A stretch of DNA of 41,749 bases from Sandaracinus sp. (GTDB lineage: Bacteria; Myxococcota_A; Polyangia; Polyangiales; Houyiibacteriaceae), in the NCBI GenBank assembly GCA_002699025.1, contig PABA01000095.1:1-41749 (forward strand), given 5' to 3'. Positions 18,355 through 41,182 of this stretch are shown here, piece after piece (the first letter of the stretch is position 1; the number at the start of each line of letters is the position of its first letter). The notes below the pieces were generated by a model. The model was given only the letters and a program-made list of their open reading frames with translations, did no database searches and was not told the DNA's origin. The translations under genes and the position numbers were made by a program.

Positions 18355-20010
18355 TCAGCTCCGCTCGTCGTCGTCCTCGGGCCCGGCGCAGTCCGGGTCC
18401 GCCCCGTCGAAGAGTCGGTCGTCGTCGTTGTCGCGACCGTCGCTGCAGCGCGCCCGCTCGTCCAGGCCGTCGGGGCTCTCGCAATTCGGATCGTCCGCGT
18501 CCACGCGCCCATCGCCGTCGTCGTCCTCGCCGTTCCGGCACGCGGGCACCCACTCGGCCGCCTCCGGCGTCGCGCAGGCCGGGTCCTCGGCGTCCACGCG
18601 GCCGTCCTGATCGTCGTCGAGGCCGTTGGCGCAGCCCGGCGCCTCACCGAGCGCGTCCGGTCCGAGGCACTCGGGGTCGGCGAAGTCCACGCGCCCGTCG
18701 CCGTCGTCGTCCTCGCCGTTCAGGCAGGGCGGCACGCCCTCGTGGGAGACCAGGAAGGGGAGGGCCCCCGCGCAGTCCGGGTCGTCGCCATCGATGGCGC
18801 CGTCGCCGTCGTTGTCCTCGCCGTCGAAGCAGAAGTAGGGGTAGGGATCGGCCGGCGGCCGGGGCAGCTCGCTGCCGGAGACGCACGCCCGGCAGTCCGG
18901 GTCCTCCTGGTCGAGGGCGCCGTCCCCGTCCCCGTCCAGGCCATCGGCGCAGGGGCTCTCGCTCCGCGGGACGCAGCGCCCGAGGGAGGCGCCCGCCTCG
19001 TCCGTCGAGAAGCCCACCACGCACTCCGGGTCGTCGAGGTCCAGCTCGCCGCTTCCGTCGTTGTCGACGCCGTCGAGGCAGAAGCCGCCGGTGCTCTCCT
19101 CGTAGCCCGCCGCGCAGGCGGGGTCGGCGGCGTCCACGAGGCCGTCGCCGTCGTCGTCGAAGCCGTTGGCGCAGGACGTCGCCTCCGGGTCCTCGACCCC
19201 GCTCTCGGCGCAGCTCGGGTCGGCGGCGTCGACGAGGCCGTCGCCGTCGTTGTCGACCCCATCGGCGCAGATGCCCGGCCGGGGCGCGGGCGTGCCTTCG
19301 AAGATCTCCCCGCGGGCGCAGGCCGGGTCGGCGGCGTCGACGAGGCCGTCCCGATCGTCGTCGACGCCGTTCTCGCAGGGGAGGGGCCGCGCTTCGTCGT
19401 TCGAGTCGAGCTCGCAGAGGGAGCCGGGCCCGCGCGGGCAGCAGCTCGGGTCGTCGGCGTCGACGAGGCCGTCGCCGTCGTCGTCGATCCCGTTGGAGCA
19501 GGCCGGGAGGACGTGCTCGGGGATGCAGGAGAAGTACGCCACCGCGCCGTCTTCATCGCGCTCCCAGCCCGTCCAGTCGCGCACGCGCTCGAGCTCGAGG
19601 GCCGCGTCCGCGTCGAAGACCCGCTCGGGCGCCAGGTGGGCCCGGAGCCGCCGGCGCCCGGCGTCGTAGCTCAGCCCGCCGATGGACCAGCGGTAGCGCC
19701 CCTCCTGCGGCAGGACGGGCGCGAGATCACAGTCGGGCGCCTCGGCGTAGGGGAGGCGCTCCCGCTCGGGCCCGGGAAGCTCGAGGCGTCCGGCGACCGC
19801 GCCCTCGGCGTCCTGGTGGAGGAAGAGGCGCACGAGGCGCGGCTCCCCGAAGAGGAGCTGCTCGCCCTCCCACACGCCCGTGAGGTTGCCCGGGTCGCCG
19901 GGGGGCAGAGCGAGCTCGGGGAGCGCGTCGTCTCCCTCGCAGCCCAGGACCGCGCATGCGCAGGCCAGGGCCAGCACGCGGGGGGCGCGGGAGCGTCCGG
20001 GACGCGGCAT
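18355..20010 (-). CDS. MopE-like metal-binding repeat lipoprotein
   Basis: A 551-residue lipoprotein with lipobox A-V-L-G-C near residue 24. The first part (about 30-165) is a Gly/Leu/Arg-rich, probably beta-structured domain (N-L-T-G-V-W-E-G-E). The remainder (about 168-551) holds eleven repeats of the form C-x-(N/D)-G-x-D-x-D-G-D-G-x-x-D-x-x-D-P-x-C, the putative metal-binding motif found in MopE-type surface proteins and similar to thrombospondin type 3 calcium repeats. Each repeat offers acidic calcium ligands closed by a Cys pair. The ATG at 20010 follows the receptor stop after one base (TGA-C-ATG), so it is co-translated with the TonB-dependent receptor and is likely its surface partner, much as SusD pairs with SusC. 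Ligand unknown: calcium for folding, or copper/iron for uptake. Confidence 0.85.
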   Translation of the reverse strand: MPRPGRSRAPRVLALACACAVLGCEGDDALPELALPPGDPGNLTGVWEGEQLLFGEPRLVRLFLHQDAEGAVAGRLELPGPERERLPYAEAPDCDLAPVLPQEGRYRWSIGGLSYDAGRRRLRAHLAPERVFDADAALELERVRDWTGWERDEDGAVAYFSCIPEHVLPACSNGIDDDGDGLVDADDPSCCPRGPGSLCELDSNDEARPLPCENGVDDDRDGLVDAADPACARGEIFEGTPAPRPGICADGVDNDGDGLVDAADPSCAESGVEDPEATSCANGFDDDGDGLVDAADPACAAGYEESTGGFCLDGVDNDGSGELDLDDPECVVGFSTDEAGASLGRCVPRSESPCADGLDGDGDGALDQEDPDCRACVSGSELPRPPADPYPYFCFDGEDNDGDGAIDGDDPDCAGALPFLVSHEGVPPCLNGEDDDGDGRVDFADPECLGPDALGEAPGCANGLDDDQDGRVDAEDPACATPEAAEWVPACRNGEDDDGDGRVDADDPNCESPDGLDERARCSDGRDNDDDRLFDGADPDCAGPEDDDERS

Positions 20011-20011
20011 G

Positions 20012-22774
20012 TCAGAACGCGGCATGGACCGAGAGGTTCGGGGCGAAGAGCGCGGGCATGAAGTCGGTCTGGCAGCGTTCCGCGTAGACGCCGTCGGGGG
20101 CGCAATCGGCATCGAGGGGCTCGCGGGCCAGGGTCAGGTTGAACCACTCGAGGACCACGCGCATGCGGCCCCAGCGTGGCTCCCAGAGGTAGCCGAGGGA
20201 GGCGTCGAGGCGGAGGAAGGCGGGGAGCCGGACCTCGAGGCGGCGGACCTCCCCCTCGGCACGGTCGACCTGGTAGCCGATGGGGGAGGGGCGGCCCGTC
20301 CGGAGCATGCCGCGCGCGCCGAGGAAGAGGCCGCTCCGATGGCGGATCTGCAGGACCGCGTTCAGGCCGTGGCGGAAGTCGAAGCTCGGCGTGTAGCGGA
20401 AGAGGGCCTCATCGGGGTCGATGGTGGCGCGGGCGAGCGTGTAGGAGAGGAAGCCGCTGACCGTCTCGCGGGGATCCCGGCGGAGGAAGAGCTCGAGGCC
20501 GTAGGACCACACGTCGCTGCGGATGTCGGCGATGCGATCGCAGCCGGGGACGACGTCGGGACAGGTGAGCACGAAGGCGTCGGCGAAGAAGGTGTCCTGG
20601 AGCCGGTGGAGGAACCCCTGGAGCGCGACCTCGACGCCGCCGCGCTCGAGGCTGGCGCCGAGCTCGGACTGGATGGCGCGCTGGAGGCGGCCCTCGACCA
20701 TGATCTGTGAGATGCCCGGGAGCGCGAAGGGCGGGACGGCCGGTTGGTGGGCGAGGCCGGCGGCCACGTGGAGCGTGAGGCCGGGGAGGGGCTCGACCTC
20801 GGCGCGGAGCCGCGGGTCGACGCTGAGCTCGACGGTCTCGCCCCGTAGCCAGAGGTCGCCGCGGAGGCCGAGCTCGACGGCGACCCCGCCCTCGCGCCAG
20901 GTCGCCTCGCCGTAGAGGCCGGCCACGCCCTGGCGGAGGCGGTCCGGGAAGCGGATGCTCTCGCTGACGTCATCGGCGTAGGAGTCCTCGAGGCGCCCCG
21001 AGAGGCCGACGAAGTCGCCGCCGGCGCGCACGCGCCAGGGCCCGCGACGCCAGGTGCCCCAGAAGCGCGGCGAGAGGGTGCCGACGCTCGCCTCGAGCGT
21101 GAGGTCTTCGTCCGTGTCGAGGGTCGAGGCCTGGAAGGAGCCCCCGAGGGCGGCGGCGAGGACGCCGCGGGCGTGCCGGCGGAGGACGCGCAGCTCGAGG
21201 CGGTGGAACTGGAGGCCGATCTCGCTGTGCTCGGCCGGGTCGGCGGCGGAGCGGTCACCGAAGCGATCGAAGCTGCCGAGGGCGACGACCTCCACGCGGG
21301 TGCGCCGGCCGATCGGGTGCTCGAAGCGCGCCTGGTAGTCCCAGTAGGCGAGGCGGACGTCGGGAGCGAAGACGCGGAGGAGCAGGCCCGGGTAGCCGTA
21401 GCGCCCGGCCAGCTGCAGGCCCCCTTCGCCGACCGGGGCGCGCACGGCGGCCTGGGCGTCCAGCGTGCGGAGCTCGACCTCGCCGCCGACCGTGTCGCCG
21501 ACCGGGCCCGGGCCCTCGCCGACGATCACGCCGCCGATGTGGCGCCCGTAGCGAGCGGGCGCGACGCCCGCGTGCAGCTCGACGTCGCCGATCATCGTCG
21601 GGTGCACGACCGCCGGGCCGAGGCCGAGGTGGAAGAGCGCGGGGAGGGGCACGCCGTCGTAGAAGTAGGCGGAGCCGGCGGGGGGCGCGCCGCGGATCGT
21701 GACCAGCGGGAAGCCGCTGAAGATCGGCTGCACGCTCGGCAGCGCGGTGAGGGCGCGGAAGGGATCGCCGAGGGCGCCCGGCATCAGCCGGACCTCCTCG
21801 AGGGCGAGGCGCCTCGGTCGGCCCGCCGGGACGCGCACCCGCGCCTCGGCGCCGAAGCTGGCCTCCGCGGCTTCGGCCGGTGCGGGGGCGCGGGGCGCCG
21901 AGGGCGCGGGGCCGTCCTCGGGGGGCTCCCCGGTCGGCCTCTCGGAGGCGGGCGCGGTCTCGCGCGCCGTGCTGCTCTCCGCCGCGTCCACCACGGTGAA
22001 GCGGAGCCGTACGCGCGAGGCCACGGGCGCGTCGCCGCGCCGGGCGGGCTCGAAGCGGGCGTCCTCGAGCGCGTCCGCGGCGCGCGCGCAGAGCGGGGCG
22101 GGCGCGTCGCATCCCTCGAGGGCCCCACGCCCGTCGGTGTCGACGCGCACGGTGAGCACGAGCTCGGGCGGGGGCTCGCCGCGGCCCTCCCAGACGACCT
22201 CGGGCAGCTCCAGGACGCGCGGCGGGCGCGCCCGCGGTGTCGAGGGCTCGCTCGGCGCTCGGGCGTCCGGCGCGTCTCGCGTGTCCGGGGCGCCCGGGGT
22301 GCTCCGTGTGCGCTGCGAGCCCCGTGTGCTCTGCGAGCCCCGTGTGCGCTGCGAGTCCCGTGTGCTCTCCGAATCCCGTGTGCTCTGTGAGTCCCGTGTG
22401 CTCTGCGAGCCCCGTGTGCTCTCCGAATCCCGTGTGCTCTCCGAGTCCCGTGTGCTCTCCGAGTCCCGTGTGCTCTCCGAGTCCCGTGTGCTCTGCGAGT
22501 CCCGTGTGCTCTGTGAGTCCCGTGTGCTCTGCGAGTCCCGTGGGTCGCGTGTGTCTTGCGCGCCGGCGCCGGCGGCGAAGCTCAGCCCGAGCAGAGCGAG
22601 CGCTGTTCGCGCGGCGAGGCCGCGGGGGCTCCTTCCCCGCGAGCCGGCGCACCGGCGGGTCGGCGTGGGGAGAGGAGAGCGGGGAGACAACGTCGAAGAG
22701 GGGAAGTGCCCCGGGCGGTCGCGTCGCGCAACGAGGCGCGCGCCGGGGCGGACTCGCCCGCCTCCCGCCCGCAT
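20012..22774 (-). CDS. TonB-dependent receptor with N-terminal TonB-like domain and hexapeptide repeats
   Basis: A 920-residue outer-membrane receptor. A long basic n-region precedes the hydrophobic stretch T-A-L-A-L-L-G-L-S-F-A-A-G-A-G-A-Q (signal, ending near residue 72). Then come about fourteen Ser-Thr-Arg-Asp-Ser-(Gln/Glu) hexapeptides (about 76-155), a TonB C-terminal-like domain (about 198-262: E-L-V-L-T-V-R-V-D-T-D-G), a plug domain (about 320-450: L-P-S-V-Q-P-I-F-S-G-F-P, V-T-I-R-G, Y-F-Y-D-G-V-P-L-P), and a beta-barrel ending in H-A-A-F with the usual terminal aromatic. It imports an unknown ligand using TonB energy. The ATG at 22774 is the only ATG in frame; TACGTC ends 7 bases before it. 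A TTG at 22690 would give a shorter n-region. It is divergent from the acetyltransferase fusion, 154 bases away, and coupled to the MopE-like gene. Confidence 0.85.
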   Translation of the reverse strand: MRAGGGRVRPGARLVARRDRPGHFPSSTLSPRSPLPTPTRRCAGSRGRSPRGLAARTALALLGLSFAAGAGAQDTRDPRDSQSTRDSQSTRDSQSTRDSESTRDSESTRDSESTRDSESTRGSQSTRDSQSTRDSESTRDSQRTRGSQSTRGSQRTRSTPGAPDTRDAPDARAPSEPSTPRARPPRVLELPEVVWEGRGEPPPELVLTVRVDTDGRGALEGCDAPAPLCARAADALEDARFEPARRGDAPVASRVRLRFTVVDAAESSTARETAPASERPTGEPPEDGPAPSAPRAPAPAEAAEASFGAEARVRVPAGRPRRLALEEVRLMPGALGDPFRALTALPSVQPIFSGFPLVTIRGAPPAGSAYFYDGVPLPALFHLGLGPAVVHPTMIGDVELHAGVAPARYGRHIGGVIVGEGPGPVGDTVGGEVELRTLDAQAAVRAPVGEGGLQLAGRYGYPGLLLRVFAPDVRLAYWDYQARFEHPIGRRTRVEVVALGSFDRFGDRSAADPAEHSEIGLQFHRLELRVLRRHARGVLAAALGGSFQASTLDTDEDLTLEASVGTLSPRFWGTWRRGPWRVRAGGDFVGLSGRLEDSYADDVSESIRFPDRLRQGVAGLYGEATWREGGVAVELGLRGDLWLRGETVELSVDPRLRAEVEPLPGLTLHVAAGLAHQPAVPPFALPGISQIMVEGRLQRAIQSELGASLERGGVEVALQGFLHRLQDTFFADAFVLTCPDVVPGCDRIADIRSDVWSYGLELFLRRDPRETVSGFLSYTLARATIDPDEALFRYTPSFDFRHGLNAVLQIRHRSGLFLGARGMLRTGRPSPIGYQVDRAEGEVRRLEVRLPAFLRLDASLGYLWEPRWGRMRVVLEWFNLTLAREPLDADCAPDGVYAERCQTDFMPALFAPNLSVHAAF
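22313..22549. repeat. 18-bp coding repeat (Ser-Thr-Arg-Asp-Ser-Gln/Glu)
   Basis: About 13-14 units of GTGTGCTCT(G/C)(C/T)GA(G/A)TCCC on the plus strand, in tandem with no spacers. They encode the charged linker after the receptor signal peptide. Unit-to-unit variation is mostly Gln/Glu and Asp/Gly. Confidence 0.9.
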
Positions 22775-22781
22775 CGGCCAG

Positions 22782-22787
22782 GACGTA
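22782..22787 (-). promoter_or_regulatory. -10-like element TACGTC for the TonB receptor
   Basis: On the minus strand TACGTC ends 7 bases before the ATG at 22774. The sixth base departs from the usual T, so this is a weak candidate. Confidence 0.3.
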
Positions 22788-22915
22788 CCGGACCCCCGTC
22801 CCGATTCCCCGACCCCGGCGGCGTCCCCTGGGTTCGTCTCCCCTCGACTCGCACACGCGCTCGCGGCCGCGCGCTCCAGGTCCTCGCGGGGGAGGCGCGG
22901 CGCGCGCGGGCGTGA

Positions 22916-22921
22916 TAGGCC
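22916..22921 (+). promoter_or_regulatory. extended -10 (TGA-TAGGCC) for the acetyltransferase fusion
   Basis: TAGGCC, preceded by TGA as in an extended -10, ends 7 bases before the GTG at 22929. It decides the start and suggests a leaderless mRNA. Confidence 0.45.
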
Positions 22922-22928
22922 AACGCGT

Positions 22929-25900
22929 GTGACGCGCCCGCCCGAGGAAGAGCTGGACCGGCTGGACGAGACGCACCTCGACGAGGAGGCGGAGGAGGCC
23001 AGCCGCCGGGTCCGGCACGCGCCGCGCTTCCAGCGCGTGCGCCGCCCGGAGACGGGGGCGCAGCCGGGGAGCGCGGCCTGGCAGGCGCGGCTCGCGGCGC
23101 TGGCGACGCCGGCGTCGGAGGGCTTCGCCGTCGATCTCGTGCGGAGCGGTGGGCCCCGGGTGGCGAGCCTCGACGGCGATCCGCTCGTCGCCCTGGACGC
23201 CGGCGAGGGAGTGCTCCGTTCGCCGCGCGGCTACCAGCCCGGGCCGGCCGTGCGCGCCCACGCCGAGGGAGGCTTCGGCGCCGCGCTGACGGGGGACGAT
23301 GGCGTTCGGGCGCGGGCCGAGGAGGCGGCCTTCGCGGCCTGGCTCCGCGCGCGCTCGCCGGAGCACCCGCACGTCGCCTTCCTCCCCTCGGTCGCGACGG
23401 CCCGCGACCTCGCCCTCACGGCGGCGCAGCGGCTCCGGCCCGAGGCGCCGCTCGCGCTCGCCCTCGAGGGCGGCGCGGAGCTCGGCGTGCCGGTGGAGCG
23501 CCACGGGGCCCCGGCCTCGATCCCGGGGGAGGCTCCGGTGGCCCCCGCGGGCTGGGCCGAGGCCGCCGGGCGAGGAGAGCTCGGCGCCTTCGCGGACGCG
23601 CCGGGCCTCGGCGAGACGGTGCGCGCGCTCGAGGCCATCGACGCGCGGCTCGGCGCGCGCCCAGACGTCTACGCGGTGCACGTGGAGCCGCTCCAGGAGG
23701 CGACCGAGCGCTGGCTCGGGCCGGCCTTCCTCGCCGGGCTGCGGGCGGTCGCGGCGCGCCGGCGGGTCGCCCTGATCGTCGACGAGGTCGGCGGCGGCTT
23801 CGGCGCGGGCGCCGTCGGCCAGCTCGCGCTCCACGCGGAGGCGATGGTCGGGCTCGCGCCGCCGGAGCTGGTCGTCTTCGGGGGCGCGGCGCAGGTCGGC
23901 GTCGTCGTCGGGGTGGACCCGCTCCCGCCCGCGCGCGACCGGGCCCATCCGGCGGCGCTCTTCCGCGGACGGCTCGCCGCCGAGGCCCTCGGCCGGCACG
24001 CGAGCGATCTCGAGGGCGCCGTGCGCGAGCGCCTCGAGCGCCTCGCCGGGCGCTTCGCCATCGTCTCCGGCGTGCGCGCGGCCGGGCGCGCCTTCGCCTT
24101 CGAGCTCCCGACGGAGGCGCATGTGGCGGCGCTCCGGGCCCAGGCGCCCGCCCGCGGCGCCCTCCCGCTCGCCGGGTCCGAGGCCGCCCCGCGCACCGTG
24201 CGCTACCGGCTCGGGGAGCGCTGGGGCGAGCGCGAGCTCGACGCGCTCTTCGACGCGCTCCGGGCCACGCTGAAGTACCTCGAGGCGCGCCTGGACGCCG
24301 CCGGTGCGGGGCCGCCTTGGGAGCCCGAGCCGCCCCCTCCGAAGGCGGCGCGCCGCCCGCCCATCGACGCGCCGACCCGCGTACGCGCCGTGCCGCCGGG
24401 GGAGGCGGAGGCGATGCTCGACGCGGTGGTCGGGCTCGAGGCGCGCGTCTACGAGCCCGCGCGGCGCGACAGCAAGGAGAAGCTCGGGCTCGCCTTCCGC
24501 GATCCGGCCGGCGTCGCCGTCGTCGCCGAGGCGGAGCGGGACGGCGCCTGGGAGCTCGTCGGCTGCGCGCTCGGCGCGCCCCTCGAGCGCATCGAGGGCG
24601 TGCCCGGCGCGGACGTCGATCGCATGCGCCCGCTCCGCAACAGCCTCTACGCGCTCTCCACGACGCTCGACCCGACCTGGCGCGGCCACGGCCTCGGCCG
24701 CCGCATGAAGGAGGCGCTCGTCGACGCCGCCGCGGCCGTGCGCCGCCCCGACGGGAGCCCGCGCTACCACTACGTCTGCGGGCGCATGCGCGTCGGCGCG
24801 ACGGGCGCGATGATGGCGATCAACGCGCAGCTCGGGGCGACGGAGGTCTACCGGCTCGAGCGCCAGTACGAGGGCGACGCGCAGGCCACCTACTACCGCA
24901 TGCCGCTGCGCGGGCCGGTCGTGGTGCCGGCGCGGCGCGAGGCGCACGCCCCGGCGAGCGCGTTCCGGCTCGGGCGCCCCGAGCGGCTCCTCGACGGGGC
25001 CCCCCGCACGCTGCGCCAGCTCGCGCGGCGGGGCGGCCTCGAGGGGCCGGCGGTCCACGGCCTGCCGCTCGGGCTCCGGCCGACGCCGCCGATCCTCCGC
25101 GCCCTCGAGCACGTCCGGGCGCTGGTCCCCGCGCACCCGCGCGTGCACGTCGCCGCCTGCCTCGGGGACGCGGTGGAGGCGGCGCGGCGCTCCCTCGGGC
25201 GGCCGGCGGCGGCCGCCGTCGTGGGCCTCGAAGGGGGCTGGCTCGGCGAGCTCGGTCCGACGGCGCGGGCCCTCGGACCGACGCGGACGGCCATCCCGCG
25301 GCCGCCGACGCCCGCCTCGCTCCTGCCGCATCCGGCCGCCGATCTCGAAGGCGCCCGGGAGGCGCTCGAGGCCCTCGCCGATCAGCCGGGCGGGCCGGCC
25401 CTCGCGGCGCTCTTCCTCGAGCCGCTCCAGCGGCGGACGGGCCGGCGCGTGCCGGACCCCTTCTGGGCGGCGCTCGAAGACTGGCGCGCGGCGACCGGCG
25501 TGCCCGTGGTGCTCGTGGAGAGCGCGAGCGCGGGCTGGCGGAGCGGCGCCGGGCCCCTGCTGGCGAGCGAGCTGCCCTTCACGCCGGACCGGCTGGTCTG
25601 GGCCGCCGGTCGCGTCGCCTTCGCGCATGCGCCCGAGGACGCGCCCTTCCCGGCGGCGGGTTGGGACGCGGACCCGCTCGCCCTGGTGCAGGCCCACCAC
25701 GCGCTCCGCGCGGCGCGCGACCTCGCCCTCGACGGCCTGGTCGCCGCGGCCCGGCTCGAGGACGCGCTCGCGCCGCTCCGCGGGGCCGGCGCCGAAGAGC
25801 GCGGCACGGGCGCCCTCCGCTTCGCGGTCCTCGGGGACGCGGCGGGACCGGTGGCGGCGCTCCTCGAGGCGCGCGGGATCCACCCGGCGCGGGTCGGCGG

Positions 25901-25997
25901 CGTGCTCCGCTTCGCGCCGCCGCTCGACGCGCCGCCCGAGCGCTTCGACGCGCTGCAGACCGCCCTCGAGCGGGCGGCCAGGGAGCACCTCTCTTGA
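22929..25997 (+). CDS. fusion: degenerate aminotransferase - GNAT acetyltransferase - degenerate aminotransferase
   Basis: A 1022-residue soluble protein in one unbroken frame. Domain 1 (about 60-455) follows the L-lysine 6-aminotransferase pattern: V-H-V-E-P-L-Q (250-256), V-D-E-V-G-G-G-F-G (284-292) and P-E-L-V-V-F-G-G-A-A-Q-V-G (312-324), but the PLP-binding Lys of F-G-K-K-x-Q-V is Gly, so it cannot transaminate normally. Domain 2 (about 485-662) is a GNAT with acetyl-CoA motif T-L-D-P-T-W-R-G-H-G-L-G-R-R-M (579-593), comparable to beta-lysine N6-acetyltransferase (AblB/YodP). Domain 3 (about 685-1022) is a second aminotransferase-like fold (F-L-E-P-L-Q at 829-834, L-V-E-S-A-S-A-G-W in place of the D-E pair, V-L-R-F-A-P-P-L near 992) that also lacks the Lys. 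The GTG at 22929 is supported by TAGGCC 7 bases upstream. Its stop overlaps the intact aminotransferase gene. I infer a scaffold-acetyltransferase for lysine breakdown. Confidence 0.8.
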   Translation: MTRPPEEELDRLDETHLDEEAEEASRRVRHAPRFQRVRRPETGAQPGSAAWQARLAALATPASEGFAVDLVRSGGPRVASLDGDPLVALDAGEGVLRSPRGYQPGPAVRAHAEGGFGAALTGDDGVRARAEEAAFAAWLRARSPEHPHVAFLPSVATARDLALTAAQRLRPEAPLALALEGGAELGVPVERHGAPASIPGEAPVAPAGWAEAAGRGELGAFADAPGLGETVRALEAIDARLGARPDVYAVHVEPLQEATERWLGPAFLAGLRAVAARRRVALIVDEVGGGFGAGAVGQLALHAEAMVGLAPPELVVFGGAAQVGVVVGVDPLPPARDRAHPAALFRGRLAAEALGRHASDLEGAVRERLERLAGRFAIVSGVRAAGRAFAFELPTEAHVAALRAQAPARGALPLAGSEAAPRTVRYRLGERWGERELDALFDALRATLKYLEARLDAAGAGPPWEPEPPPPKAARRPPIDAPTRVRAVPPGEAEAMLDAVVGLEARVYEPARRDSKEKLGLAFRDPAGVAVVAEAERDGAWELVGCALGAPLERIEGVPGADVDRMRPLRNSLYALSTTLDPTWRGHGLGRRMKEALVDAAAAVRRPDGSPRYHYVCGRMRVGATGAMMAINAQLGATEVYRLERQYEGDAQATYYRMPLRGPVVVPARREAHAPASAFRLGRPERLLDGAPRTLRQLARRGGLEGPAVHGLPLGLRPTPPILRALEHVRALVPAHPRVHVAACLGDAVEAARRSLGRPAAAAVVGLEGGWLGELGPTARALGPTRTAIPRPPTPASLLPHPAADLEGAREALEALADQPGGPALAALFLEPLQRRTGRRVPDPFWAALEDWRAATGVPVVLVESASAGWRSGAGPLLASELPFTPDRLVWAAGRVAFAHAPEDAPFPAAGWDADPLALVQAHHALRAARDLALDGLVAAARLEDALAPLRGAGAEERGTGALRFAVLGDAAGPVAALLEARGIHPARVGGVLRFAPPLDAPPERFDALQTALERAAREHLS

Positions 25998-27220
25998 GCG
26001 ACGAGCCCTTCTTCCTCACCTGGCAGGCGCAGGCCGGCGGCGCGGCGACCGAGCTCCGCGGCGGCGACGGCGTCTGGATGGACACGGGCGCCGGCCGGGT
26101 TCTCGATCTCGGCGCGCTCGTCTACCAGGCCAACGCGGGCCACGGCCATCGGCGCATCGTCGAGGCGGTGAAGGCGCAGGCCGACGCGCTCTGCCTGGCG
26201 CCCCCGAACGCCGTCTACCCAGCGAAGCGCGCGCTCGCCGAGGCGCTCCTCGCGAAGGCGCCGCCCGGCTTCTCGAAGGTCTTCTTCTGCCTCGGCGGCT
26301 CGGACGCAAACGAGAACGCGATGAAGATCGCGCGCATGGTGACCGGCCGCCACAAATGCGTCGCGCGCTACCGCTCCTACCACGGCGCCACGCTCGGCGC
26401 GTCCACGCTCAGCGGCGACTGGCGCCGCGCGCCCATCGAGCCGGCGCTCCCGGGCGTGGTCCACGTGATGGATCTCGACGAGGGCGTGGAGGGCACGCAG
26501 ATCCCGCGCGTCCTCGCGCTCGAGGAGCAGGTCGGCGCGGTCTTCCTCGAGTCGGTGGTCGGCGCGAACGGCGTGCTGATCCCACCACCCGGCTACTACG
26601 AGGCGGTGCGCGCGGCCTGCGACGCCCACGGGGCGCTCTGGGTCGCGGACGAGGTGCTCGTGGGCTTCGGGCGGACCGGCCGCTACTGGGGCTTCGAGCA
26701 CTGGGGCGCGACGCCGGACCTCATCAGCTGCGGCAAGGCGCTGACGGGCGGCTACGGCACGCTCGGCGCGGTGCTCGTCCACGAGCGGGTGGCGCGCGTC
26801 TTCGAGGAGAAGGTGCTCGCCTGCGGGCTGACGCACTACGCGCACCCGCTCGGCGTGGCGGCGGCCCTCGAGGCCCTGCGCGTCTACGACGACGAGGGGC
26901 TCGTGGCGAAGGCGGCGGCGCTCGAGGCGCCCCTGAAGGCCGGGCTCGAGGGGCTCGCCGCGCGCGTCGGGGAGGCGGCGGGCGCGGTGCGCGGGATCGG
27001 CGCCCTCGGCTACCTCGGGCTCGACCTCGACGAGGCCGGGCTCGGCCGCTTGCGCGCGGCCCTCGCATCGAAGAGGGTGCACGTCCACGTGAAGGGGCCG
27101 CGGCAGCTCCGGGGCTCCGGCGGCGCGCTGGTCGTCTCGCCTCCGCTCTGCATCACGGAGGCGGAGCTCGACGAGGGGCTCGGGCGCGTCGCCGAGGCCC
27201 TCGACGAGGTCGTCGGCTGA
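25994..27220 (+). CDS. class III aminotransferase (YodT-like, predicted N6-acetyl-beta-lysine transaminase)
   Basis: A 408-residue PLP-dependent class III aminotransferase. It has C-L-G-G-S-D-A-N-E-N-A-M (99-110) for phosphate binding, the cofactor pair Asp219-Glu220 in V-A-D-E-V-L-V-G-F-G-R-T-G, and the catalytic Lys248 in L-I-S-C-G-K-A-L-T-G-G, so it is intact, in contrast to the degenerate domains of the gene before it. Its TTG start lies in a TTGA overlap with that gene's stop, so the two are translationally coupled. The CoA-transferase genes follow. By analogy with B. subtilis YodT, the likely substrate is N6-acetyl-beta-lysine, giving 6-acetamido-3-oxohexanoate. Another beta- or omega-amino acid is possible. 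Confidence 0.9.
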   Translation: MSDEPFFLTWQAQAGGAATELRGGDGVWMDTGAGRVLDLGALVYQANAGHGHRRIVEAVKAQADALCLAPPNAVYPAKRALAEALLAKAPPGFSKVFFCLGGSDANENAMKIARMVTGRHKCVARYRSYHGATLGASTLSGDWRRAPIEPALPGVVHVMDLDEGVEGTQIPRVLALEEQVGAVFLESVVGANGVLIPPPGYYEAVRAACDAHGALWVADEVLVGFGRTGRYWGFEHWGATPDLISCGKALTGGYGTLGAVLVHERVARVFEEKVLACGLTHYAHPLGVAAALEALRVYDDEGLVAKAAALEAPLKAGLEGLAARVGEAAGAVRGIGALGYLGLDLDEAGLGRLRAALASKRVHVHVKGPRQLRGSGGALVVSPPLCITEAELDEGLGRVAEALDEVVG

Positions 27221-27311
27221 ACGGCTCGCCCGAGCGGAGGGCGAGCGGCGCGCCCCCGAGGCGGCACCGAAGACGAAACGAGCGGGCGCGGCCCGCGTGA
27301 TGGAGAGGTCC

Positions 27312-28019
<708 letters not shown>

Positions 28020-28020
28020 G

Positions 28021-28647
28021 ATGCCGTTCAGCAAGCAGGACATGGCCGCGCGCGCCGCGCAGGAGATCGAGGACGGCGCCATCGTGAACCTGGGCATCGG
28101 GCTGCCGACGCTCGTGCCCGACTACCTGCCCGAGGGGCGCGAGATCTGGCTCCAGAGCGAGAACGGCATCCTCGGCATGGGGCCCTATCCCTACGAGGGC
28201 GAGGAGGACCCGCAGGTCATCAACGCCGGCAAGCAGACCGTGACCATCGTGGACGGTGGGAGCTGCTTCGACTCGGCGACGAGCTTCGCGATGATCCGCG
28301 GGGGGCACGTCGACCTGTCGATCCTCGGGGCGATGCAGATCGGGGCGAACGGGGACATCGCCAACTGGGCGATCCCGGGCGGGCGCACGATGGGCATCGG
28401 CGGGGCGATGGACCTCGCGGCCGGGAGCAAGCGCATCCTCGTGATGTCGACGCACGTGACGAAGAAGGGGAAGCCGAAGCTGCTGCGGCGCTGCTCCTTC
28501 CCGCTGACCGCCGTGGGCGTGGTGGACCGGGTGATCACGGACCTCGGCGTCTTCGATCCGGTCGGCGAGGGCTTCCGCGTGGTCGAGCTGGCGCCGGGCG
28601 TGGAGCGCGCCGAGGTCGAGGCGAAGACCGACGCGGCGCTCGAGTAG
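28021..28647 (+). CDS. 3-oxoacid CoA-transferase subunit B
   Basis: A 208-residue beta subunit (ScoB/AtoA type). The catalytic glutamate that forms the glutamyl-CoA thioester is Glu47 in the motif Q-S-E-N-G-I-L-G (45-52). The L-G-I-G-L-P-T (24-30) loop and the S-I-L-G-A-M-Q-I-G-A-N-G-D-I-A-N-W segment are typical. It has a good ribosome-binding site (GGAGG just before the ATG), and the subunit A stop is one base upstream. The A and B subunits form the active enzyme in the cytoplasm. The genes downstream (ferritin, transpeptidase) are not part of the pathway. Confidence 0.95.
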   Translation: MPFSKQDMAARAAQEIEDGAIVNLGIGLPTLVPDYLPEGREIWLQSENGILGMGPYPYEGEEDPQVINAGKQTVTIVDGGSCFDSATSFAMIRGGHVDLSILGAMQIGANGDIANWAIPGGRTMGIGGAMDLAAGSKRILVMSTHVTKKGKPKLLRRCSFPLTAVGVVDRVITDLGVFDPVGEGFRVVELAPGVERAEVEAKTDAALE

Positions 28648-30907: not shown

Positions 30908-33706
30908 ATGAGTGCTTCGACCCCCGCCGCCGTTCCGCGCGCGACGGCCGCCGGACGCTTCGGCACCTTCGGCGGCGTCTTCACGCCGAGCATCCTGACG
31001 ATCCTCGGCGTCGTCATGTACCTCCGCCTCGGCTGGGTGACCGGCGAGGCGGGGCTCGGCGGGACGATCCTCATCGTCCTGATCGCCCACGCGATCAGCT
31101 ACGCGACGGGCCTCTCGGTCGCCTCCATCGCGACCAACCGGACGGTGGGCGCGGGCGGCGCCTACTTCATGATCAGCCGCTCCCTCGGCGCCTCCGCCGG
31201 CGCGGCCATCGGCATCCCGCTCTTCTTCGCGCAGGCGCTCAGCGTCACCTTCTACATCGTCGGCTTCACCGAGGCCGTCGTGCCGCTGATCCCCGAGGAG
31301 TGGCGGGACTTCTTCGACCCGCTCTTCATCAGCACGAGCGTGAACGTCCTCTTGACGATGCTCTCGCTGAAGAGCGCGGACCTCGCGATCAAGGCCCAGT
31401 ACTTCGTGATGGCCGCGATCGTGCTGTCGCTCGTCTCCTTCGGCACGGGCACGACGAACGAGTTCCCGCGCGAGATCGAGTGGTTCAACGAGGAGGGCGA
31501 GGGCTTCGGCACCATCTTCGCCGTCTTCTTCCCGGCCGTGACCGGGATCATGGCCGGCGTCTCCATGAGCGGCGACCTGAAGGATCCGCGCGTCGCCATC
31601 CCGAAGGGCACGCTCTGGGCGATCACCGTCGGGATGATCGTCTACCTGGTCTTCCCGATCTGGCTCTCGCTGAACTACTCGAACGGCGCCCTCGCCAACG
31701 ACATGAGCGCCGTCTGGACGATCTCGCGCTGGCCCGAGCTGATCTACGTCGGCGTCTGGGGCGCGACCCTCTCGAGCGCGCTCGGGTCGATCCTCACGGC
31801 GCCGCGCACGCTCCAGGCCCTGGCCCTCGACGGGCTGGTCCCCCGCGTCCTGGGGCGCGGCTCGGGCCCGTCCCAGGAGCCGCGCATCGGCATCATCCTG
31901 ACCTTCGTGCTCTCCCAGACGGGCATCTTCCTGGGGAGCCTCGACGCCATCGCGCCGGTCCTGACGATGTTCTTCCTCGCCACCTACGGCGTCACGAACC
32001 TCGCCTGCGGCCTACAGAAGTGGGCCGGCAACCCGAGCTTCCGGCCGAGCTTCGCCGTGCCCTCCTTCATCAGCCTCGGCGGCGGCGCGGCCTGCTTCTA
32101 CGTGATGAGCATCATCGACCTGCCGGCCATGGTCGCCGCGCTGGTCTTCTGCGGGCTCATCTTCTTCATCGCCTCGCGCCGCGCGCTCGGCACGACCTAT
32201 GGCGATGCGCGCCACGGCATCTGGTCGGCCATCGTGCGCTACGCGCTCCAGCGCCTGCGCCGCGCCGAGTACCACCCGCTGAACTGGCGCCCGAACCTGC
32301 TCATCCTCGGCGGCAACCCGAACAAGCGGCCGCACCTGCTCCACCTCGGCAACGCCATCGTGCAGGACCGGGGCATCGTCACGTACTTCCACCTGCTCCG
32401 CGGGCTGGTGAAGGAGAAGGCCGAGCTCCGGCGCGAGCTCTTCGAGACCTACGAAGCGCGCATGGCCGTGAAGTGGCCGAACGTCTTCTACCGGGTCGAC
32501 ATCGTGGACGACGTCTTCGAGGGCGCGGTGCAGGTCGCCCAGAGCTACGGCGTCGGCAGCTTCGAGTGCAACGCGGTGATGGCCGGCTGGCCGCTGAAGC
32601 CCGAGCGCGCGGAGGCCTACGCGCAGATGCTCCGGGACCTGACGCACCTCGACCGCTCGCTCCTGCTCGTGAAGTGGGACGAGGAGCGGCAGCTCGGGGA
32701 CGGGCGCGAGATCCACGTCTGGTGGGGCGGGCTGCAGGGCAACGGCGGGCTCATGCTCCTGCTCGCCTTCCTGCTCACGGCCCACTACCGCTGGCGTCGC
32801 GCGAAGGTGGTCGTGCTCACGGTGGTGAACGACGAGGCGAGCCGGGAGCGGGCCGAGGCGAACCTGACGCGGACGCTCCAGGCGGCGCGCCTGGACGCCG
32901 AGCCGCGGGTGCTCCTGCGGGAGGGCCGGAAGATCCCGGAGATCATGGGGGGCGAGTCGGCCGAGGCGGACCTCGCCATCGTCGGCTTCCGGCTGCCGCC
33001 CGAGGGGCAGGCCCCCGGGGCCTTCTTCGAGCGCATGTCGCAGCTCATGGAGGGGTTGCCGACGACCATCCTCGTGCACAGCGCGCGGAGCTTCGAGAGC
33101 GAGCCGGTGCTCTTCGACGACGGGCACGAGACCGAGCCGGAGCCGCTGCAGGTGGGCGACGCGGCGCCCTCCGTGCCGCCGGTGGCCGCGCGGCCGAGCG
33201 TCCCCGACGCGGCGAAGATCAGCTCGCCGGGGCAGCTGCCGGCCGGCGCGCCGCTGCCGCCCTCGGATCACGAGGGGCGCCCCTCCTTCACGGACCTGCC
33301 GAGCGGGAGCACGACGCTGCGGGAGAGCGGCGAGTTCGATCTGACGGCGAGCGGGGAGCACCCGGTGGGGATGCACCTGGCGTCGCAGCCGCCGGAGCCG
33401 CCGCCCGGCGAGGGCGTGGGCGAAGGCGAGGGCGAAGGCCGGGAGCCGCCGACGGATACGGCGGAGACGCCGCTGCCGGAGGAGCGCTCGAGCGTGGACG
33501 CGGCGCTGGACGGGCCGCCGCCGGTCGGGACGCCGGTGGGGGAGGGGGGCGAGGATCGGCCCGTGCCGCCGCCTTCGCCGCTGCCGCCGAGGGGGCCGGA
33601 GGGGCCGCGGAGCGGGGAGATCCGGCTGCCGGAGGCGGAGCCGGACACGCGGCCCGATGGGACGGGGCCGACCGAGGTGGAGGAGCCGCGGGACGAGGAG
33701 GAGTAG
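30908..33706 (+). CDS. SLC12-type cation-chloride cotransporter homologue
   Basis: A 932-residue membrane transporter with the full plan of eukaryotic SLC12 cotransporters. The first helix pair reads G-V-F-T-P-S-I-L-T-I-L-G-V-V-M-Y-L-R-L (23-41). The family signature F-F-P-A-V-T-G-I-M-A-G at 207-217 is followed by S-G-D-L-K-D-P (221-227) and A-I-P-K-G-T. About twelve helices end near residue 430. The cytosolic C-terminal domain begins with N-W-R-P-N-L-L-I-L-G-G (459-469), R-P-H-L-L-H-L and the G-G-L-M-L-L-L-A-F-L-L-T region, matching the SLC12 regulatory domain. The last 200 residues are Pro/Glu-rich and disordered, an addition. Predicted coupled transport of Na/K and chloride, or possibly an amino-acid/cation variant. 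The ATG start is the obvious one. No neighbour suggests the ion. Confidence 0.9.
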   Translation: MSASTPAAVPRATAAGRFGTFGGVFTPSILTILGVVMYLRLGWVTGEAGLGGTILIVLIAHAISYATGLSVASIATNRTVGAGGAYFMISRSLGASAGAAIGIPLFFAQALSVTFYIVGFTEAVVPLIPEEWRDFFDPLFISTSVNVLLTMLSLKSADLAIKAQYFVMAAIVLSLVSFGTGTTNEFPREIEWFNEEGEGFGTIFAVFFPAVTGIMAGVSMSGDLKDPRVAIPKGTLWAITVGMIVYLVFPIWLSLNYSNGALANDMSAVWTISRWPELIYVGVWGATLSSALGSILTAPRTLQALALDGLVPRVLGRGSGPSQEPRIGIILTFVLSQTGIFLGSLDAIAPVLTMFFLATYGVTNLACGLQKWAGNPSFRPSFAVPSFISLGGGAACFYVMSIIDLPAMVAALVFCGLIFFIASRRALGTTYGDARHGIWSAIVRYALQRLRRAEYHPLNWRPNLLILGGNPNKRPHLLHLGNAIVQDRGIVTYFHLLRGLVKEKAELRRELFETYEARMAVKWPNVFYRVDIVDDVFEGAVQVAQSYGVGSFECNAVMAGWPLKPERAEAYAQMLRDLTHLDRSLLLVKWDEERQLGDGREIHVWWGGLQGNGGLMLLLAFLLTAHYRWRRAKVVVLTVVNDEASRERAEANLTRTLQAARLDAEPRVLLREGRKIPEIMGGESAEADLAIVGFRLPPEGQAPGAFFERMSQLMEGLPTTILVHSARSFESEPVLFDDGHETEPEPLQVGDAAPSVPPVAARPSVPDAAKISSPGQLPAGAPLPPSDHEGRPSFTDLPSGSTTLRESGEFDLTASGEHPVGMHLASQPPEPPPGEGVGEGEGEGREPPTDTAETPLPEERSSVDAALDGPPPVGTPVGEGGEDRPVPPPSPLPPRGPEGPRSGEIRLPEAEPDTRPDGTGPTEVEEPRDEEE

Positions 33707-39985: not shown

Positions 39986-41182
39986 TCAGACGCGCCGCGG
40001 GACGAAGTCGGGCTCGGCCCCCTCGAGCATGCGCGTGATGTCCGCGTGGAGCGCCCGGTTGCCGGCGCGGGCGAAGAGGGCGTCGCCTCCGGGGAGGGTC
40101 TGCCGGACGGTCTCGAGCCCACCGACGAGCAGCCGCGTCGGGTGGATCGCGTGGCGCCAGGCGCGGTTCGGGATGCGCAGGGCGCGGGCGATCGCGTCTC
40201 CGTTGAAGGCCCAGGTGAGGCCGTCGTGGTAGGGGACGACCGCGGCCGCGAGGAGCTTCTCCCGGCGCGTGCGCGCAGCCTCGCGGGGGACGACCCGGAG
40301 CGCGGCGGCCAGATCCAGGCTGTCCTGATCGGGGCCGGGCTGGACGAGCTTCACCAGCTCGGCGAAGGCGACGCCGCGCGCCTCGTTCGCGAGCTCGTCG
40401 AGGAGGGGGGCGGCCACGCCGCTGAGGTGGCCCACCCAGCGCCAGAGGTGCACGAGGGCCTCGCTCTCGGCGGGCCGGAAGCGGAAGCCCAGCTCGCGCG
40501 CGCCGGCGAGGACCAGGAGCGAGAACTCGATGATCGTGCCCGCCATGTCCGCCTGGTTGATCGGCAGGCCCCAGCGCGCGCTGTCCCACTCGCCGGAGCG
40601 GAGGATCATGCGCCGCACGCCGGCGTGCATGAGGCGGACGCGGAGCGCGATGCGCCAGCCCTCGGCGTAGGGGGCGACGCCGCCGTCCTGGCAGACCTCG
40701 ACCAGGAAGCGGCCCGTCTCGGCGAGGCGCCGCGGGGCCATGCGGTCGAGCTGGCCGGTGAAGGTGAGCGGCTTCACGGCCGCGCCGCTGTGGTAGCCGT
40801 TCATCAGCGACCAGGCGCTGAGGATGAAGAGGAGCGGCTTGCCGATGCGCTGGTAGGTGCGCGCGCCGAGCGCGAGGCGGGCGTCGTCGAGCCAGGGCGG
40901 CCGGGCGAGGGCGTCCTCGAGGAGCGCCTGGAGGGGCGCCGGGGCCGGCGCGTCGAGCGGGCCCTCGAGCGCCCGGCGGACGAGCTCGCGGCCTTCGGGG
41001 CCGGCGGCGGCGAGCCACTCCACGAGGGCGTCGGCGAGCGGGTCGCCGCGGAGCATGTGCTCGCCGAGGACGTCGGCGAGGGCGCCGTGGCGGCGTCGCG
41101 CCTCGGCGCGCCGGACGTAGCGGGCGGGGAAGCGCGGCGGGACGGCGGCCGTGCTCCCCGGGCTCGGGGTCGCGTGCTCCAC
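39986..41182 (-). CDS. DUF2236 oxygenase-like protein (MpaB / latex-clearing protein family)
   Basis: A 398-residue soluble protein of the family that includes latex-clearing protein Lcp and MpaB, heme-b oxygenases or related enzymes. The helical core carries W-R-I-A-L-R-V-R-L-M-H-A-G-V-R (176-190), in which His186 is the expected proximal heme ligand, and G-L-P-I-N-Q-A-D-M-A-G-T (205-216), a family hallmark. Y-H-S-G-A-A-V-K-P-L-T (130-140) lines up with the distal-pocket lysine region of Lcp. No signal peptide, so unlike secreted Lcp it is probably intracellular and acts on another unsaturated or lipid substrate. The GTG start is supported by TAGACT 7 bases upstream, and an 18-base palindrome overlaps the promoter, so the gene is probably controlled by a dimeric repressor. 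Confidence 0.85.
   Translation of the reverse strand: MEHATPSPGSTAAVPPRFPARYVRRAEARRRHGALADVLGEHMLRGDPLADALVEWLAAAGPEGRELVRRALEGPLDAPAPAPLQALLEDALARPPWLDDARLALGARTYQRIGKPLLFILSAWSLMNGYHSGAAVKPLTFTGQLDRMAPRRLAETGRFLVEVCQDGGVAPYAEGWRIALRVRLMHAGVRRMILRSGEWDSARWGLPINQADMAGTIIEFSLLVLAGARELGFRFRPAESEALVHLWRWVGHLSGVAAPLLDELANEARGVAFAELVKLVQPGPDQDSLDLAAALRVVPREAARTRREKLLAAAVVPYHDGLTWAFNGDAIARALRIPNRAWRHAIHPTRLLVGGLETVRQTLPGGDALFARAGNRALHADITRMLEGAEPDFVPRRV

Follow-up and report, generated by a model that had tools for sequence, protein, structure and literature searches.

An acetyltransferase with two aminotransferase-like flanks in Sandaracinus sp.: a probable decayed member of a Myxococcota multi-enzyme family

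Introduction

The 41,749-nucleotide stretch of Sandaracinus sp. DNA analysed here (hereafter the window) contains a gene whose product places a GNAT acetyltransferase between two aminotransferase-like domains, D1 and D3, with the PLP lysine in neither flank. Why should one protein carry two aminotransferase folds and no PLP lysine? A sequence-only reading of this DNA had argued that two dead folds were being reused, for example as scaffolds or as pseudo-subunits for the aminotransferase that the next, overlapping gene encodes. Our analysis confirms the observation, supports the interpretation in part and revises the mechanism: the window protein is probably an acetyltransferase carrying a decaying, once-active aminotransferase, descended from a Myxococcota multi-enzyme with a composite active site. 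Literature searches, which gave partial coverage, returned no description of this architecture, so the family is apparently undescribed. It is a more interesting object than the window protein itself.

The window gene and its protein

The features of the gene are listed below; LAT is the lysine 6-aminotransferase of M. tuberculosis.

22929-25997, + strand: whole gene, D1-GNAT-D3 protein of 1022 aa (translation with GTG start and TGA stop, Pfam, NCBIfam, AlphaFold2)
23064-24293, + strand: D1, eroded LAT-like class-III aminotransferase half, approximately residues 46-455 (Pfam/NCBIfam, Foldseek to LAT, alignment to intact relatives)
23781-23783, + strand: Asp285 of D1, equivalent to LAT Asp271 and still present (alignment)
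23883-23885, + strand: Gly319 of D1, within FGGAAQ at the PLP-lysine position (LAT Lys300; FAKRAQ in relatives) (alignment)
24369-24908, + strand: GNAT acetyltransferase domain, approximately residues 481-660, acetyl-CoA motif R-G-H-G-L-G intact; conserved core of the family
24954-25994, + strand: D3, aminotransferase-like half without a PLP lysine, approximately residues 676-1022 (NCBIfam, VIA-align; profile at family level)
25653-25664, + strand: A-A-G-W in D3, replacing S-T-W (LAT Ser329-Thr330-Trp331); all Lys-bearing relatives have STWDGDELS or a near variant (alignment)

The intact 1022-residue frame had been offered as an argument for reuse. The frame is confirmed but is weak evidence alone, because a GC content of 74% keeps other frames open as well: the open frame extends about 400 codons upstream of 22929, and an antisense frame of 1577 codons (window 21255-25988, - strand), most likely a by-product of the 74% GC and not a gene, covers nearly the entire fusion gene. 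In support of the start at 22929, a motif conserved at the N-terminus, ELDRLDETHLDEE in the window protein, begins near residue 8 and is found in relatives too.

Pfam places Aminotran_3 in D1 (E 4e-12, residues 234-318), and the top NCBIfam match of D1 alone is L-lysine 6-transaminase (E 1e-12), in agreement with the lysine 6-aminotransferase pattern that had been recognized by eye. The window protein scores 44-47 bits and an intact D1 111 bits against TIGR03251, both far below its equivalog cut-off of 520.8 bits. Class-III aminotransferase models of NCBIfam match D3 weakly (E 0.002-0.07). The GNAT domain has the acetyl-CoA motif R/Q-x-x-G-x-G/A in the form R-G-H-G-L-G; its Acetyltransf_1 score of 19.0 is just below the Pfam cut-off of 20.7, and the GNAT of one relative (L016) is above it. 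The GNAT alone matched no relevant model in NCBIfam, which may have no AblB model, and gave weak matches in the PDB, the best at 1.7e-4. An identity as AblB was considered and was not confirmed by any NCBIfam model.

The flanks have the class-III aminotransferase fold in the predicted structure, as the sequence-only reading had supposed. The AlphaFold2 model of the window protein (pLDDT 75.6, pTM 0.75; the structure models rest on 16 sequences) has LAT as its closest match by Foldseek (2jjh, E 4e-14, TMt 0.68), and VIA-align places mainly D3 on LAT and GABA-T chains (Z 31-33). The model of an intact relative (L052) is confident across the entire chain (pLDDT 84.5, pTM 0.87); its best Foldseek match is again LAT (TMt approximately 0.8), and its D1 and D3 each match aminotransferases with Z >21.

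At the residue level, D1 of the window protein reads VDEVGGGFG...ELVVFGGAAQVGV and D3 reads LFLEPLQ...VLVESASAG...LRFAPPL, so that D3 keeps EPLQ and RFAPPL and has ES for DE, all as first read. In the alignment based on relatives, the position of LAT Lys300 is occupied by Gly319 in D1 and by Ala in D3. The position of Thr330 is Gly in D3, and the phosphate-binding threonine of the partner side is therefore absent. D1 retains the Asp and two Glu of the aminotransferase site, and segments of it are deleted. Judged on these residues, the window protein would not act as a class-III aminotransferase despite its fold, as both the PLP lysine and the partner threonine are missing. A single sequencing or assembly error behind the lysine loss is ruled out by the multi-residue change, the deletions and the five other Lys-less genomes, in which the site takes differing forms.

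Relatives and the composite active site

When related genomes were searched with the GNAT domain, 17 more genomes of the same family and order gave a match, and a profile search found the D1-GNAT-D3 architecture across our sample of the phylum Myxococcota. (A single-protein scan of the genome contigs found no relatives; an alignment was required as the query.) The data are public and mostly metagenome-assembled genomes. By their named records, some of which carry older or generic labels, the relatives belong to Polyangia, Sandaracinaceae and other Myxococcota. In many relatives a fused aldehyde dehydrogenase precedes D1, and this is the usual arrangement; in the one member tested (L016) its best matches are succinylglutamate-semialdehyde dehydrogenase models, below their cut-offs. 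Members examined from the window's own family have no aldehyde dehydrogenase in the chain.

The PLP pocket of LAT takes Gly128, Ala129, Phe167, His168, Glu238, Asp271, Val273, Gln274 and Lys300 from one subunit, and the other supplies Ser329 and Thr330 (PMC9780415). We made an inventory of these positions, together with Arg170, Glu243 and Arg422, in 43 aligned members. The PLP lysine of D1 is present in 37 of the 43. Its absence from all homologues, which the sequence-only reading had left to be checked, thus holds for D3, where it is never present, and fails for D1; for D1, one of the outcomes that this reading had named as refuting it is therefore seen at the level of the family. All 37 Lys-bearing members also keep D271, V273, Q274, E238, E243 and R422 in D1, and G128, H168 and R170 are kept in all 36 rows that have no gap at these positions (one partial row is gapped). 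Variation in the gap-free rows is confined to two positions, F167 (Leu in two) and A129 (Ser in one).

D3 of the same members has the complementary pattern: S329-T330-W331 is kept in 37/37, and Gly stands at the K300 position in 37/37. In the D3 profile, STWDGD aligns with STWGGN of the LAT structure 2jjf, and the alignment of D1 with LAT has a gap across the S-T-W motif, which D1 does not have. D1 is without the partner contribution and D3 without the catalytic one; therefore the two look like one asymmetric site. The simplest reading of these sequences is that D1 and D3 of the intact members form a single-chain asymmetric aminotransferase with one composite site, and transaminase activity of these members would be predicted. 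D3 would then be an intramolecular pseudo-subunit of D1, which is a better form of the pseudo-subunit idea.

The models support packing of D1 against D3 in one chain, and the pTM of 0.87 for the single intact chain is consistent with, and no more than consistent with, the D1 lysine and the D3 threonine meeting in one site. We infer that pairing takes place within the chain. Pairing of an intact D1 with the D3 of another chain fits the sequence data equally well, since these do not separate the two arrangements; the confident single-chain model makes it rather unlikely, and it would alter the stoichiometry and not the idea of a composite site.

Joint loss of both half-sites

The D1 lysine is lost in six members: the window protein, L010, L011, L012, L014 and L019. 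The D3 threonine is kept in none of these six, compared with all 37 Lys-bearing members. The Lys-less group was defined from the residue pattern before either tree was built. In the GNAT tree the intact member L009 is placed among the Lys-less members, and the well-supported branches cannot be reconciled with fewer than two changes of state; a single dead clade holding the six together fits worse (p-AU 0.046, marginal). Unless the lysine was regained, lysine and threonine were lost jointly at least twice, a result that is marginal in number and clean in pattern; at least two losses are counted because regain of the entire site is unlikely. The losses are clustered in one family, and the contrast of 37/37 with 0/6 represents only a few independent events.

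Divergence of the flanks follows the same division. Five pairs of intact members have D1 identities of 55-80% against GNAT identities of 51-70%. Lys-less pairs show the reverse, with 30-41% in D1, 37-57% in D3 and 65-68% in the GNAT domain (all from one multiple alignment, in which the badly eroded parts of L014 and L019 are poorly placed). At equal GNAT divergence, the Lys-less flanks are far more diverged than the intact flanks. GC at the first codon position in the window reaches 0.89 in D1 and D3, against 0.79 in the GNAT domain, a rise of the kind that a drift of amino acids toward GC-rich codons would produce.

These data bear on the proposal that the dead flanks were selected as a ligand-binding regulatory clamp or an oligomerization scaffold for the GNAT domain. 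The window flanks are still folded in the model and in frame, D1 keeps three acidic residues of its site, and codon-position GC in the flanks is still coding-like, all of which would suit such a role. Flanks that evolve much faster than their own GNAT, and a D1 that has lost whole segments, would not. Moreover, almost no D1 is left in two members (L014:6012-9506, + strand, from G008; L019:5590-9363, + strand, from G015), where it is reduced to about 100 residues, D3 is much eroded and the GNAT domain is well kept. These are the most advanced stage of an erosion series. We consider selection for a clamp or scaffold unlikely, although the eroded flanks might have some role, in stability or oligomerization, given the retained fold and coding-like codons. 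One further chain (L023:7736-9790, - strand, from G034) consists of aldehyde dehydrogenase and GNAT with neither D1 nor D3 in the chain, as if the two had been lost together as a unit. As the flanks are relaxed and the GNAT acetyl-CoA motif is retained, the acetyltransferase appears to be what selection keeps.

Neighbouring genes and pathway

Three genes downstream of the fusion are conserved neighbours.

25994-27220, + strand: class-III aminotransferase, 408 aa, with a TTG start overlapping the fusion stop
27297-28019, + strand: 3-oxoacid CoA-transferase subunit A
28021-28647, + strand: 3-oxoacid CoA-transferase subunit B

The overlap of the first gene with the fusion, and their association in many relatives, could suggest that the flanks are pseudo-subunits dimerizing with its product. 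However, this aminotransferase carries its own PLP lysine (GKALTG) and phosphate threonine (LTHYAHPLG) and so needs no partner, it also adjoins fusions with an intact D1 (L009, L013, L015, L016, L017 and L020), and the flanks it would have to bind diverge fast. Such a pairing is very improbable. Both CoA-transferase subunits likewise adjoin the fusion in many relatives, intact ones included. Because they stand beside intact fusions too, these neighbours are not compensation for D1, and the downstream aminotransferase is ruled out as a replacement for a dead D1.

Other neighbour genes, for kinases, an endonuclease-like protein, a peptidase M19 and carboxylase subunits, are not widely common to the relatives. 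In two relatives a C45/AAT-family autoproteolytic acyltransferase/hydrolase lies beside the conserved aminotransferase (L015:5764-6882, - strand; L016:12592-13812, + strand) and might serve as a deacylase in the same pathway. A long lysine 2,3-aminomutase paralogue (for example L042:5837-7261, - strand, from G000:C218) does not cluster with the fusion. It occurs in 48/54 genomes with the fusion and in 77/325 others (Fisher 2.6e-20, uncorrected for relatedness), and it has kept the two aspartates that correspond to D293 and D330 in the clostridial enzyme, which we take to be the residues that recognize lysine. The conserved neighbours and this co-occurrence together make breakdown of acetylated beta-lysine or lysine a tentative guess for the setting, with a basic amino acid such as beta-lysine or lysine as the substrate. 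BKACE (PF05853) was tried as a pathway marker and is not discriminating (21/24 genomes, no informative neighbours).

Elsewhere in the window we noted a divergent 920-aa gene close upstream of the fusion, encoding a TonB-dependent receptor plug domain (20012-22774, - strand), a 585-aa protein in which the acidic double-disulfide repeat NF033662 recurs in 11 stretches (18355-20112, - strand), a prokaryotic cation-chloride cotransporter-like protein with an AA_permease and SLC12 C-terminal match (30908-33706, + strand) and a protein matching the MPAB/Lcp (rubber oxygenase-type) catalytic domain (39986-41182, - strand).

Discussion

Taken together, the architecture, the residue inventory, the joint loss and the accelerated flank divergence suggest the following history. 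The ancestor would have been a Myxococcota multi-enzyme of the form [aldehyde dehydrogenase]-D1-GNAT-D3. Its D1 and D3 would have packed together as the two subunits of a class-III aminotransferase dimer do, forming one active site, with the GNAT domain spliced between these halves. D1 would contribute the PLP lysine, the Asp, the Gln, the Glu switch and the arginines, and D3, without a PLP lysine of its own, the Ser-Thr pair by which the partner side binds the cofactor phosphate. In the window lineage the chain would have lost its aldehyde dehydrogenase, and the two sides of the composite site would have decayed jointly, so that what remains is a GNAT acetyltransferase whose flanks are folded but catalytically dead. 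Only the GNAT domain still looks functional from its sequence, and it is presumably active.

On balance we favour a wider reading, in which Myxococcota have a four-domain enzyme (aldehyde dehydrogenase, aminotransferase half, GNAT and pseudo-half) with a single PLP site across two halves, combining acetylation, transamination and oxidation of an amino acid in one polypeptide, and in which the window family records its stepwise dismantling. If this is true, the class-III aminotransferases come to include an asymmetric dimer that is a single chain, has one site and carries a second enzyme domain between its halves. There would also be a natural series from intact to point-mutated, eroded and nearly deleted forms, showing how two half-sites decay jointly once the activity is unneeded. 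A function assigned on the strength of the aminotransferase match alone would be wrong in the case of the window protein and half wrong in that of its relatives.

The gene setting resembles that of KamA and the yod genes in B. subtilis and of AblA/AblB in methanogens, where an aminomutase, an acetyltransferase, a class-III aminotransferase and a CoA-transferase are found together, and a lysine 2,3-aminomutase co-occurs with the fusion. In contrast with those systems, the aminomutase here is unlinked to the fusion, and the fusion GNAT matches no relevant NCBIfam model. The role of YodT is itself unproven (PMC6522883).

Serine palmitoyltransferase SPT1/SPT2 is a PLP-dependent heterodimer with presumably one active site, in which one subunit is without the PLP lysine (PMC6148460). 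The fusion shares the presumably single site and the Lys-less half; SPT1/SPT2 differs in belonging to the alpha-oxoamine synthases, in being two separate chains and in having no GNAT. The P-protein of glycine decarboxylase is likewise one long chain, made of two fold-type-I halves that have one PLP lysine between them, but it is of another subfamily, with no inserted GNAT and no erosion series.

LAT (Rv3290c, PDB 2cin/2jje; TIGR03251) is what D1 matches best, in sequence and in fold. Its PLP and substrate residues, the Glu243 switch among them, are kept in intact D1, and D3 of the intact members keeps Ser329-Thr330. An intact D1 scores 111 bits, far below the equivalog cut-off of 521 bits. Whereas the LAT pocket is formed by two symmetry-related subunits (PMC9780415), the two halves here lie in one chain, one of them without the PLP lysine and with an acetyltransferase between them.
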